The notes below the pieces were generated by a model. It saw only the letters and a list, made by a program, of their open reading frames with translations, was not told the DNA's origin and ran no database searches. 64,000 bases of DNA from Fluviicola sp. (GTDB taxonomy: Bacteria > Bacteroidota > Bacteroidia > Flavobacteriales_D > Crocinitomicaceae): the NCBI GenBank assembly GCA_017983675.1, contig JAGOAZ010000011.1, forward strand, positions 1 through 64,000. Direction: 5' to 3'. How positions within the stretch are numbered: position 1 is the stretch's first letter; every line of letters begins with the position of its first letter. Made by a program: the position numbers and the translations under genes. This document shows, piece after piece, positions 6,623 to 10,848 of the stretch.

Positions 6623-6693
6623 AGAAACGAAAATAAGACAATTAAACTGAATCGGCTGAATATTAACAGATTTTAAATGATTGCTTTTTAATC

Positions 6694-6725
6694 ACATATG
6701 TTAATTTCAATTGTTACATATGTAA
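6694..6725. promoter_or_regulatory. Paired palindromic boxes upstream of mnmA (candidate XRE operator)
   Basis: ACATATGT occurs at 6694-6701 and again at 6716-6723, exactly 22 bp apart. The second copy is the core of a perfect 12-bp palindrome, TTACATATGTAA (6714-6725). The boxes lie between the divergent genes at 6622 and 6793, about 55 bp upstream of the mnmA -10 box. Similar boxes with similar spacing occur in front of the XRE regulator gene and the small gene at 8640. Confidence 0.5.
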
Positions 6726-6780
6726 AACATTCAAAAAATATTATAATCCTAGAATTACGGATAATCTCATTTTTAGTGAT

Positions 6781-6788
6781 TAAATTTG
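6781..6788 (+). promoter_or_regulatory. -10 box of mnmA promoter
   Basis: TAAATTTG matches TAnnTTTG fully and ends 4 nt before the mnmA ATG, predicting a leaderless or nearly leaderless mRNA. No -33 TTG is obvious at the expected distance. Confidence 0.6.
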
Positions 6789-6792
6789 TCTT

Positions 6793-7971
6793 ATGAAACG
6801 AGTAGTTGTTGGTTTGTCAGGTGGAGTTGATTCGAGCGTTAGCGCTTATTTACTCAAAGAGCAAGGTTACGAGGTGATCGGTCTTTTCATGCGTAATTGG
6901 CACGACGAAAGCGTAACACTTTCCAACGATTGTCCTTGGATTGATGATTCGAACGATGCCTTGTTGATTGCAGAACAATTAAACATCCCATTTCAAGTAC
7001 TCGACTTGAGCAAAGAATACAAAGAACGTATCGTCGACTACATGTTCGATGAATACCAAGCTGGTCGCACACCAAATCCCGATGTGTTATGTAATCGTGA
7101 AATCAAATTTGACGTGTTTTTAAAGGCAGCAGAAGAATTAGGCGCCGATTTTGTAGCAACGGGACATTACTGTCAAAAAACAACAAGCGATGACGGTTTA
7201 CACCACTTAATCGCAGGTGCAGACAACAACAAAGATCAATCGTATTTTCTTTGCCAACTTTCGCAAGCTCAATTAGCAAAAGCTTTATTTCCAATTGGAC
7301 ATCTCGAAAAACCTGCAGTTCGTGCCATCGCCAAAGAAATTGGACTTGTTACAGCCGATAAAAAAGACTCACAAGGACTTTGTTTTGTAGGCAAAATAAG
7401 TCTCCCCGAATTTCTTCAACAAAAACTAGAAGTAAAACACGGTAAAGTAATAGAAGTCAATCCTATTAACAAACAATTTACTGACTACAATAACCTTGAA
7501 GTAAGCATCGAAAACTGTGAATTATTGAGCGAACCATTCGTTTATACTCCAGAAATGGGTATTGAAGTAGCCGATCATATTGGCGCTCATTATTACACAA
7601 TTGGCCAACGAAAAGGATTACATATTGGCGGACGCCCGAATCCTTCTTTTGTAATAGGAATTGACACCGTATCCAATACGGTTTATTCAGGTCAGCTTGA
7701 TGAACACCCCGGCTTAAACCGTTGGGCGTTGAAAATCAATGAAAACGAATGTCACTGGATCAATCCAACACATGAGTTAACAATTGGAGAAAGCAAGGAA
7801 TATCAAATTAAAATACGATACAGACAAGCTGCACAGACGGGATTTTTGATCCGAAAGGAATCGGGATATTACATTCTTTTCAAAGAAATACAACGTGGAA
7901 TAACACCAGGTCAGTTTGCAGCATGGTATGAAGGAACTGAGTTGATTGGCTCAGGAATTATTGCGCATTAG
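6793..7971 (+). CDS. mnmA: tRNA-specific 2-thiouridylase MnmA
   Basis: 392 aa. It adds sulfur to U34 of Lys, Glu and Gln tRNAs. The N-terminal ATP pyrophosphatase domain starts with the PP-loop [10 protein letters not shown] (residues 8-17). The two catalytic cysteines are visible in [12 protein letters not shown] (near 100) and GLCFVGK (near 196). The C-terminal half has [13 protein letters not shown] and a closing beta-barrel. Its 3' end overlaps the convergent XRE gene by 14 bp. The promoter is leaderless-type and has phased palindromes upstream, so the XRE protein may control it (inference). Confidence 0.96.
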
Positions 7972-8332: not shown

Positions 8333-8333
8333 G

Positions 8334-8391
8334 TTACAAATGTAAATACTAATAGTTACAATTTTAATTTCAAAGTTATTTACAAATGTAA
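8334..8391. promoter_or_regulatory. Triple palindromic operator and promoter of the XRE gene
   Basis: Two perfect copies of TTACAAATGTAA (8334-8345 and 8380-8391) flank a degenerate copy, TTACAATTTTAA (8356-8367); start-to-start distances are 22 and 24 bp, about two helical turns. On the minus strand the first copy contains the -10 box TACATTTG (8344-8337), 4 nt before the ATG, so a bound protein would block polymerase. The third copy also contains TACATTTG and could be a second -10 box. Confidence 0.6.
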
Positions 8392-8400
8392 CAAAATAAA

Positions 8401-8431
8401 AAAAGTCAACCTCATTATGAGATTGACTTTT
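8401..8431 (-). terminator. Intrinsic terminator after the small gene at 8452-8640
   Basis: AAAAGTCAA (8401-8409) pairs with TTGACTTTT, with an inner CTCA/TGAG stem and a TTA loop. Read on the minus strand it is followed by a T-rich tract (from 8400 downward). It separates the small gene from the XRE promoter. Confidence 0.75.
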
Positions 8432-8451
8432 ACAAATATTTTAAATTATCC

Positions 8452-8640
8452 TTAATTCATATGATAATTAAAGAAGATTGGCACATTATTTATTTGTGGG
8501 AGCGATGGTCCAAATGTAACCAAGTCCATTAATGTTGCCACTTCTTCAATTGACAATTGACTGTGCTGTCCAAGCTCTTTATGTCTTGCCAATTTTACTT
8601 TTGCTAGATTCACTGCGTTATTGATCATCGTTAATTCCAT
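8452..8640 (-). CDS. Small hypothetical protein (62 aa)
   Basis: No family recognised. The peptide is helical and polar in its first half (NNAVNLAKVKLARHKELGQ) and has a VTFGPSLPQINNVPIFFNYH tail. Several signs make it a real gene: a full -10 box TAGATTTG (8686-8693), paired TTACAAAAA boxes just upstream with 22-bp spacing like those of the XRE gene, and its own terminator right after the stop. The mRNA leader would be about 40 nt. It may be a partner or target of the XRE regulator (inference). Confidence 0.6.
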   Translation of the reverse strand: MELTMINNAVNLAKVKLARHKELGQHSQLSIEEVATLMDLVTFGPSLPQINNVPIFFNYHMN

Positions 8641-8685
8641 ATTAAAGGTTTTAAATAGCTCCTTGAATTAAGACCATTTACGTGA

Positions 8686-8734
8686 CAAATCTAAAAAGGT
8701 TACAAAAAAATTAAAATTTAATTACAAAAAGTAA
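8686..8734 (-). promoter_or_regulatory. Promoter and paired XRE-like boxes of the 62-aa gene
   Basis: On the minus strand TAGATTTG (8693-8686) is a full -10 match. Upstream on the plus strand, TTACAAAAAAAT begins at 8700 and TTACAAAAAGTAA at 8722, again 22 bp apart. The boxes cover the region where polymerase would contact -19 to -50, so a repressor role fits best. The first box is degenerate in its right half. Confidence 0.45.
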
Positions 8735-8795
8735 TTATTGAAAAGCATCACTTTAATTAAGAAACATAAATCAACTAGTAATTAGTTAATAACTT

Positions 8796-8966
8796 TCATT
8801 CATGTTCTACATACTTGTTAAATAATTCATGGAATATTAATCCCATCACTGTAAATGGAAAGAGCATTATCTTTTTTAATACATGAAAAGAATGTGTTTC
8901 TTTTTTCACTTCCACAACTTCCACTACCTTGTCTTCGTCCAAGGCTTTTCCGCAATAGTACCGCAT
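8796..8966 (-). CDS. Small hypothetical protein with C-terminal hydrophobic segment
   Basis: 56 aa from ATG 8966; a longer version from TTG 8999 is possible. The acidic first half (DEDKVVEVVEVKKE) is followed by a hydrophobic stretch, KKIMLFPFTVMGLIFHELF, that could sit on or in the membrane. A TAAATTTA box (one mismatch) lies 12 nt before the chosen ATG. An overlapping open frame on the plus strand looks less protein-like. No family recognised. Confidence 0.4.
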   Translation of the reverse strand: MRYYCGKALDEDKVVEVVEVKKETHSFHVLKKIMLFPFTVMGLIFHELFNKYVEHE

Positions 8967-9063
8967 ATCGTTTTGTTTTAAATTTATATCGTTCGACAAA
9001 GATTCAATCTTTCATTCATGCTTTCAACGAAATTAAGTTGGAAGATAAAAAAGAATAAAATCG

Positions 9064-9119: not shown

Positions 9120-10112
9120 ATGCAGTTTTCGCTTCTTCAGCCTACTCTCACAACCCTACTCGGTTCATTTTTTGATGAAACGACTACTTGTGCGTGGTTT
9201 ATTGGGAATCAGCAGTCGTATTACATTCATAACCAACGTTTAGAAAATTGCACTATTGAAGAAACAGTTGCTGTAAAAAAAATTACTAATGAATTAAAAT
9301 CAGCTGCATTTCAAGTTGCAAAAACAGCACTACTTTTCCGGAAGCGTCCCGAAATTAAAACGTCTTCTTTTCATAAAATCAACTTTTTATCGGGTGAAAG
9401 TCTACTCATCTCGACAGTATCATCTGTTGAAATAGTAGCAATTTTCGAACGAGTGCTGAAAAATCAACTTGCTGATCTTGCAAAGCGTCAACACATTCTC
9501 CATATTATCGATAACGAATCGACAAAAACGAATTCTTTGCAGCAAGAAAACGCCGCTTTACGTTTACTTAGAAAAAACGAACTTCAAGTACTTATTCATC
9601 AATGGGAGAAATCACAGCTTCCAAATCGCGTTATTGTTACACCATCTTTTTATCAGAAAATCGATTTGTTGAGCACTAATGAAGCTATTATTTATCAATT
9701 GAACACAGCTTTTGAACTCATTCAATTCTTAACTCCTGGACTGAATGAATACCAATTAACTGCCGTTTATTTTACTTCAAGTGAGAATCAACAACAAGCA
9801 AGTAATGAACGAATTAATAATTCAATAAGTCTCACCAGAAATCGTGCAGAATTGTTATTGGATAAATACGAGCAAGCAGCACAAGTTGCTTTAGACAACG
9901 CGCAAGTAATCAATGGTAAAACAATTGCTAACTTCTTACAACCCGCTGTCTCTCCACCTGCAATTACAGATGCTTTAAAGAAAAATAGAAAAGCAATCAA
10001 GGCTTTGTTGGATGAAAACCCAAGTAAATGGGGTTTGTTACGAAATTACTTGAAACCAATTAAAAATATTTCTGAGCTAAGTTCTTTGACGCTTCAAGCT
10101 GGATTTAATTAA
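9120..10112 (+). CDS. Hypothetical protein (330 aa)
   Basis: I recognise no domain. There is no signal peptide or membrane helix, so it is probably cytoplasmic. Composition is normal for the window, with mixed alpha/beta character in the first 110 residues and long helices from about 120 on (LQQENAALRLLRKNELQVLIHQW; later a stretch rich in Asn, Glu and Arg, then KKNRKAIKALLDENPSKWGLLRNYL). The gene stands alone on the plus strand between small genes and the convergent djlA-like gene, which it overlaps by 8 bp. Its promoter has a repeat cluster and a box 4 nt from the start. Confidence 0.65.
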   Translation: MQFSLLQPTLTTLLGSFFDETTTCAWFIGNQQSYYIHNQRLENCTIEETVAVKKITNELKSAAFQVAKTALLFRKRPEIKTSSFHKINFLSGESLLISTVSSVEIVAIFERVLKNQLADLAKRQHILHIIDNESTKTNSLQQENAALRLLRKNELQVLIHQWEKSQLPNRVIVTPSFYQKIDLLSTNEAIIYQLNTAFELIQFLTPGLNEYQLTAVYFTSSENQQQASNERINNSISLTRNRAELLLDKYEQAAQVALDNAQVINGKTIANFLQPAVSPPAITDALKKNRKAIKALLDENPSKWGLLRNYLKPIKNISELSSLTLQAGFN

Positions 10113-10848
10113 TCAAGTAATTATAAGCCAGTTGAATTTCGAGAAAGTGAGCTTTCATTTCAAGTTGTTTCTCAGTTGATTCTTGTTCAAATTTATCTGG
10201 ATGAACTTTGGCGGCTAATTTACGGTATGCTCGTTTGATTTCTTTTTGCGTTGCATTTTCATCAAGCTGAAGCGTTTTTAAAGCCGATTGAATAGTTAAG
10301 TGCTCATGTAAAGGAATCGCGCTCTTTTCATTTGAATGAAAATATTTAGATCTATTCGTAATTTGTTGATTTATATAAGAATAAGACACTCCTATTAAAG
10401 TTCCAAATCTGGTTATTGCAACAATTTCACGATCTATTATTCGCTTTTCTGCAAAGGAAACATCTAACAGAAATTGCATTAATTTCACACGCTCTTGTTC
10501 CGTAGACAAATGTTGTACCACCCAGCGCGCAATTGCTCGAATAGTCGCTGTTTTTCGAAGCGCTTGCGTTAATTCATACGTTGCATCTACGCTTGACTTT
10601 CCAAAGTTTCGTTTTATATACGCATGTATAAATTTCACCTTATCATCAGAATAGCGTGCGTTTTTTTTCAAGAGCCAAGCAGCTAGAAAAATATACGCCG
10701 TAGCTTTTTTATCCTCCGATCTTTCTAAACTAAAAGAAGTTGCTTCTTCATCGATGCGATAGAACTTTTGTGAATGATAGAATTTGATACTTGCTCGTAG
10801 GAATAACAACAAGATAATTGATCCAAGAAAGACAAGCAGTGCAACCAT
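10105..10848 (-). CDS. DjlA-like membrane-anchored co-chaperone with TerB and J domains
   Basis: 247 aa in the DjlA order: one N-terminal membrane helix (residues 1-18), a TerB-like helical domain (about 45-165) and a C-terminal J domain (about 188-247). The J domain carries the HPD motif in KVHPDKFEQ, needed to stimulate DnaK ATPase. It therefore probably recruits DnaK to the inner membrane. It is the last gene of the ettA-VF530-pepD-DUF3820-djlA run. The J domain lies at the very C-terminus, as in E. coli DjlA. Confidence 0.85.
   Translation of the reverse strand: MVALLVFLGSIILLLFLRASIKFYHSQKFYRIDEEATSFSLERSEDKKATAYIFLAAWLLKKNARYSDDKVKFIHAYIKRNFGKSSVDATYELTQALRKTATIRAIARWVVQHLSTEQERVKLMQFLLDVSFAEKRIIDREIVAITRFGTLIGVSYSYINQQITNRSKYFHSNEKSAIPLHEHLTIQSALKTLQLDENATQKEIKRAYRKLAAKVHPDKFEQESTEKQLEMKAHFLEIQLAYNYLIN

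Follow-up and report, generated by a model that had tools for sequence, protein, structure and literature searches.

A 62-residue protein with a fixed C-terminal asparagine and a seemingly ECF-type promoter in Fluviicola and its family

The gene p62, which encodes 62 amino acids (aa) on the minus strand of a 64,000-nucleotide (nt) stretch of Fluviicola sp. (contig JAGOAZ010000011.1; hereafter the window), represents, judging from its conservation, an undescribed small-protein family that is old and family-wide. All its homologues end in asparagine, and it seems to be transcribed from a promoter of the extracytoplasmic function (ECF) sigma factor type. The window belongs to a genome of 2.85 Mb in 35 contigs, labelled G000 and called the own genome below. 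In the order of transcription, p62 lies between a gene of 56 aa (p56) and a gene for an XRE-type helix-turn-helix (HTH) regulator, whose 3' end overlaps the 3' end of a convergent gene (Table 1). The latter we take to be mnmA, judging from its sequence and not from a family assignment. The original prediction had tentatively joined p62, p56, the XRE gene and a 330-aa gene divergent from p56 (p330) into one regulated module. Both small open reading frames (ORFs) are found at the predicted places on the minus strand and appear to be real genes, but the module splits into three separate parts (p62, the XRE gene and the p56/p330 pair) because conservation divides them. That p62 encodes a genuine protein, has its own promoter and stands outside any XRE module is held with high confidence.

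The distribution of p62 follows kinship closely. A single-sequence search recovered it in each of the 13 further genomes sampled from the genus, at 61-77% identity, and the named records at 74-77% identity are two Fluviicola metagenome-assembled genomes (MAGs) and one Flavobacteriales MAG. When 249 genomes of the order were searched with a profile, 90 matched, every one from the same family. This corresponds to 90 of the 91 same-family genomes listed and to none of the 158 others, a division taken from the misses listed, which are apparently ordered by kinship. As the named relatives are Fluviicola, we take the family to be Crocinitomicaceae. A phylum-wide draw of 395 genomes, for which the same-family share is not stated, gave p62 in two, both same-family. 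Each genome carries one strong copy.

We read 98 homologues including that of the window. Left out were G033 (59% complete, E 0.6), locus L074, which was replaced by L160 from the same genome (G034), and weak second matches in G245 (internal stop, E 3.8e-4), G002, G015 and G035. The homologues have the common core A.LxxHxxxGxxSxLSIxEVAxLMD. Within the genus, the ratio of nonsynonymous to synonymous substitution rates (dN/dS) has a median of 0.12 and a largest value of 0.38 in the 68 of 91 pairs that are unsaturated, and we interpret this as purifying selection on a protein product. Phage or mobile origin is not indicated, because a tblastn search of phages and plasmids with the p62 of the window (E limit 0.1) gave no match.

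The last residue of the protein is strictly kept. Asparagine stands directly before the stop codon in all 98 homologues, encoded by AAT in 74 and AAC in 24, and followed by TAA (70), TAG (20) or TGA (8). On a tree of MnmA, which covers 89 loci (in the others MnmA is absent or short), the last residue shows no change, while its codon switches between AAT and AAC 16 times and 23 changes fall on the stop codon. Each of the other 24 end positions has 18-47 changes, in a count that runs unaligned from the end and therefore partly reflects insertions and deletions. Proteins encoded nearby rarely end in asparagine (MnmA 3/91, XRE 4/46, the 232-aa protein 5/52, p75 0/28, p330 1/20). Since the residue is fixed while its codon and the stop vary, and since the neighbours rarely share it, the constraint evidently acts on the end of the p62 protein itself.

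A bipartite promoter precedes p62 in most of the family. Among the 97 loci used for promoter counts (the remaining one has too short an upstream sequence), T[GA][ATC]AAC-N15-18-CGTA occurs in 80, with TG[AT]AAC in 76 of these, and a relaxed form occurs in 92. Shuffled sequences give 0.3% and the reverse strand 0/97, and the motif is absent before XRE (0/46) and before mnmA (0/88). A scan of spacings from 8 to 26 returned no value other than 16 (in 30 loci) and 17 (in 50). The motif is present irrespective of the regulator, in 38 of 45 loci with XRE and 42 of 52 without. Bipartite promoters with a CGT box are of the type used by ECF sigma factors, and p62 shows the conserved two-part element, constant spacing and CGT box that would be looked for before a member of an ECF sigma regulon; its conserved promoter thus seems to be ECF-type, T[GA][ATC]AAC-N16/17-CGTA. 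The original prediction had instead read a "full -10 box", TAGATTTG. This sequence is present in the window but unconserved: TAnnTTTG occurs upstream of p62 in 9/97 loci against 11% in shuffles, and was rejected as the conserved promoter for occurring at the shuffle level.

The same promoter type also stands before mraZ, which heads the division and cell wall cluster. A tighter pattern, TGWAACC-N15/16-CGTA, has six places in the own genome, of which one is that of p62 and one precedes mraZ. The gene was found in 44 of 45 genomes, and of the 30 loci examined 27 are same-family; in 22 of these 27, a p62-type site with CGT[AT] lies 73-77 nt 5' of the ATG (shuffles 0.3%). As the promoter type of p62 also precedes mraZ, the pattern suggests that the division and cell wall cluster of the family is under an ECF sigma factor. 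By eye, the intergenic sites that recur between genomes are those of p62 and mraZ in G000 and G018, and those of p62 and a gene that we name PorP/SprF-like from its sequence in G000 and G005. All three genomes also share one site that lies within a long ORF (L256, L231, L272), which was put down to coding conservation. An identical 26-mer, TGAAACGTTTTTAAATAGAGTCCGTA, was seen at three places of the own genome (C2:12037, C29:82 and C33:139688), two of them near contig ends, and is probably a repeated element.

ECF-type promoters drive genes of the type IX secretion system in Flavobacterium psychrophilum, according to PMC9723704. The comparable systems are the SM6 (ECF sigma) promoters of that species and the SigP regulon of Porphyromonas gingivalis (PMC4800418). 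The p62-type site at the PorP/SprF-like gene is a likeness to both, whereas the conserved targets seen here are p62 and mraZ, and the SigP motif as printed for P. gingivalis looks unlike the p62 motif.

The p62 gene is probably transcribed alone, since a terminator-like hairpin follows it in 38 of the 46 loci with XRE, against 17% in shuffles. The terminator that had been predicted for it in the window is thereby borne out. In 90 of 98 loci mnmA lies downstream in convergent orientation to p62; among the other eight, where some stretches stop at contig ends, it is farther off in one and not seen in seven. The genes met most often within about 4 kb are mnmA (91/98), a 232-aa gene beyond mnmA (52) and XRE (46). 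Because p62 persists in long contigs without mnmA nearby, e.g., at L069 and L098, we regard mnmA as a steady neighbour and not as a proven partner.

The XRE protein matches HTH_3 (PF01381) with 32 bits against the Pfam cut-off of 23. In 46 of 98 loci its gene comes after p62 and runs in the same direction, and in 44 loci p62 lies beside mnmA without it. The motif TTACANNTGTAA (at most one mismatch) precedes XRE in 43 of the 46 loci with the regulator (shuffles 2.7%) and precedes mnmA in 28 of 43 loci with XRE but in none of 44 without; inside mnmA, as a control, it occurs in 2/46 and 0/45, respectively. Before p62 it is unenriched (3/46 with XRE, 1/52 without). The exact sites of the window are the three at 8334-8345, 8380-8391 and 6714-6725. 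The window as a whole has eight matches with one mismatch allowed, which is not above chance (mean 5.2), and the operator argument therefore rests on place and phyletic pattern. As operators stand before XRE and, in loci with XRE, before mnmA, the XRE protein is probably an autoregulator that also controls the divergent promoter between mnmA and the 232-aa gene. An HTH_3 regulator beside a small gene resembles XRE/Cro-CI regulators with small partner peptides; unlike in those systems, operators and phyletic pattern tie XRE to itself and to mnmA, not to p62.

Searches for relatives of p62 outside the family returned little. Nothing significant was found in Pfam (window protein and 34 members), PHROGs (34 members), NCBIfam (window protein only) or PDB sequences (profile search), with the best of the weak Pfam and PHROG matches of single alignment members at E 0.022. 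The family is thus in none of the libraries searched. No PADLOC model of anti-phage defence was matched by p62, p56 or p330 at E 0.01; XRE had six weak matches, over its HTH part. The core S.LSI.EVA.LMD bears a weak likeness over 30 columns to DUF4476 (PF14771), which 6 of 34 members match (best E 0.042). This identity was tempting for.LSI.EVA.LMD and was rejected, as the comparison of profiles reaches a hhalign probability of just 27% and the Pfam cut-off is missed; DUF4476 is unmatched in the own genome at E 0.001. Among the open-licence papers listed, no title or opening part of an abstract describes a small protein like p62, an ECF promoter before mraZ in Bacteroidota or an XRE regulator of mnmA, and the available portion of PMC12596196 leaves mraZ unmentioned. 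An AlphaFold model from the 98-row alignment has two helices (residues 3-26 and 31-43) and a low-confidence tail.

From these observations, we propose that p62 is a small helical adaptor of an envelope and division programme that docks via its C-terminal asparagine. It would be made under the ECF-type promoter together with envelope and division genes, and would act in the cytoplasm as a small adaptor or regulator. The helical hairpin and a flexible hydrophobic tail with its free asparagine might dock onto a conserved partner, whose pocket would read the asparagine side chain and carboxylate. The XRE gene and the p56/p330 pair would be neighbours and not parts of this system. Small lineage-specific proteins are known in sigma-factor regulons. 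Taken as a whole, we hold this proposal tentatively, at slightly less than an even chance.

Several points weigh against it. One same-family genome, G158, is 99% complete and has no p62 match. Because some of the loci counted had first served to find the promoter motif by eye, the 80/97 is not independent; the independent tests are the controls and the spacing scan. Strict CGTA stands before mraZ in just 10 of the 27 same-family loci, and also in one of three other-family loci (L219). Over whole genomes, the motif falls short of its backward control, with 28 occurrences to 34 in the own genome, 14 to 57 in G005 and 12 to 29 in G018, and the six places of the tighter pattern compare with 13 in the backward control. 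In the absence of genome-wide enrichment, the regulon comprises few genes or the pattern is too loose. None of the 15 sigma-gene loci examined in the own genome (of 19 matches) carries a p62-type site, and G018 has one loose match (L299) among 14 readable of 15 loci (of 26 matches); in both genomes, start codons were picked crudely by script and some are doubtful. The p62 model is moderately confident (mean predicted local distance difference test score 70, predicted template modelling score (pTM) 0.48), and Foldseek found no match to it below E 2.4. The neighbourhood of the 98 loci names no partner, and it is conservation alone that suggests docking through the C-terminus.

Alternatively, p62 might be a small anti-sigma factor or a feedback regulator, acting on the very ECF sigma factor that drives its transcription; its two helices would wrap the sigma factor, as those of short class II anti-sigma factors do. 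The two-helix model is of a fitting size, and the promoter is kept across the family. Genes of known short anti-sigma factors, however, usually adjoin their sigma gene, and no ECF gene was recognised by eye, without a family scan, among 30 neighbour clusters; p62 also lacks any sequence or fold match. We therefore consider an anti-sigma role unlikely. Membership of an XRE module, in which the adjacent XRE regulates, or is regulated by, the p62 gene or its product, we judge more doubtful still. The regulator follows on the same strand in nearly half of the loci, and a half-site, TTTGTAAC, lies upstream of p62 in 23 of 46 loci with XRE. The half-site occurs in 11 of 52 loci without XRE as well and shares bases with the ECF -35 element. 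Loci that lack XRE retain both p62 and its promoter, the full operators are unenriched before p62, and the terminator-like hairpin mostly separates the two genes. XRE control of p62 was rejected on the grounds of operators and distribution.

The unusual feature of p62 is a fixed C-terminal asparagine without a recognisable modifying enzyme nearby. In microcin C precursors (MccA) the C-terminal asparagine is invariant; all of them end in it, and a second group has 17-56 aa (PMC6495379). Being small with an invariant terminal asparagine (98/98), p62 resembles them, and it has the small size and flexible tail of Pup. It might accordingly be a precursor or tag with a chemically activated asparagine, a protein modifier or a product like a ribosomally synthesised and post-translationally modified peptide (RiPP), which an enzyme encoded elsewhere would activate and attach to a target or nucleotide within the envelope and division programme. 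Pup-like conjugation by the known ligase was rejected, as PF03136 is found in none of 30 genomes, 19 of them same-family, with a positive Corynebacterium control. An E1-type GxGGxG(S/E)-like motif is absent from 935 neighbour ORFs, and no MccB-type adenylyltransferase gene was recognised among recurrent neighbours, in both cases by a crude pattern and not a family scan. Besides mnmA, only the 232-aa gene neighbours p62 in over half of the loci. Unlike an antibiotic cluster, p62 occurs in almost all of the family's sampled genomes, and unlike MccA it has a predicted helical core. We regard both the precursor or tag and the modifier as improbable, to a similar degree. A short gene with its own terminator might, lastly, be a leader peptide or the by-product of an RNA element and not a working protein. 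The low dN/dS and an asparagine fixed while its codon and stop vary speak against this, as do the 44 loci without XRE between p62 and mnmA. In 42 of them, at most 75 nt separate the p62 stop from the end of the tblastn match of mnmA, which leaves no space for a gene that p62 could lead, and we rejected a leader peptide as highly improbable.

Table 1. Features of the p62 locus in the window and the corresponding site before mraZ
Feature	Position	Strand	Remarks
p62	8452..8640	-	62-aa ORF; helices 3-26 and 31-43 predicted; low-confidence tail; C-terminal Asn
Apparent ECF-type promoter of p62	8679..8704	-	TGTAAC-N16-CGTA; ends 38 nt 5' of ATG
TAGATTTG ("full -10 box")	8686..8693	-	present in the window; unconserved among p62 loci
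p62 terminator	8401..8431	-	14-pair stem, followed by T-run
XRE-type HTH regulator, 124 aa	7958..8332	-	PF01381 match; separate unit
Probable XRE operator TTACAAATGTAA	8334..8345	.	adjoins XRE start codon
Second probable XRE operator TTACAAATGTAA	8380..8391	.	before XRE, in the region 8333-8451
Probable XRE operator TTACATATGTAA	6714..6725	.	between mnmA and the divergent 232-aa gene, in the region 6625-6792
Presumed mnmA (tRNA 2-thiouridylase)	6793..7971	+	convergent neighbour of p62
p56, 56 aa	8796..8966	-	from ATG; hydrophobic C-terminal segment; fast-evolving
p330, 330 aa	9120..10112	+	coiled coil and HTH-like C-terminal domain predicted; divergent from p56
Apparent ECF-type site before mraZ (L193, L212)	own genome, C12:211796..211822

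The second small gene, p56, has a different history. The membrane-like end described in the original prediction is present as the hydrophobic C-terminal segment KKIMLFPFTVMGLIFHELF, and an in-frame TTG at 8999 would extend the protein to 67 aa. The conservation in relatives that was expected of both peptides is family-wide for p62, whereas p56 has recognisable relatives only at the same place in L044, L045 and L047, two of them by weak tblastn matches (E 0.10 and 0.19). All have an MRYY.G start and one hydrophobic segment, and constraint is weak (pN/pS 0.31-0.86 in six pairs). Other genera have a longer protein at this place, of 131-178 aa in 15 loci grouped by BLAST clustering, and proteins of 86 aa in L121 and 91 aa in L132, both assigned by eye. 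The p56 group with L121 has the hydrophobic segment in common with the main group of longer proteins (hhalign 80%, 25 columns), which is only suggestive, the segment being short and hydrophobic.

A gene for a small basic or membrane protein lies head to head with a p330 homologue at this place in 21 of 21 loci, 15 of them identified by BLAST clustering and six (the four with p56, L121 and L132) by place and eye. In the other 77 loci, which lack p330, clustering found no such gene, nor did inspection by eye of 13 of them. It thus appears that p56 travels with the divergent p330, as a second candidate regulatory pair. The prediction for p330 comprises a coiled coil and a confident helical C-terminal domain within a poor overall model (pTM 0.36). 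Its profile has a weak likeness to DtxR-type winged helices (E 0.03); it matches no Pfam family, and Foldseek gave nothing below E 0.57. Because of the HTH-like C-terminal region of p330, the two could be a peptide and its controller, and to this extent the original idea of such a module may survive in the p56/p330 pair. The protein encoded at positions 10105-10848 carries a DnaJ domain at its C-terminus (47.5 bits against a cut-off of 27.8) and a TerB-like part slightly below cut-off (23 bits against 24.4).

The operator map proposes control of mnmA, and with it of tRNA thiolation, by the XRE regulator. If p62 were a modifier, it would represent a new C-terminal asparagine chemistry, analogous to that of Pup or MccA yet unrelated. 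A near-universal, family-specific protein that no database family covers is a promising lead to lineage-specific biology missed by annotation, and the fixed last residue of p62, its conserved, seemingly ECF-type promoter and the promoter type common to mraZ are handles that make tests possible.
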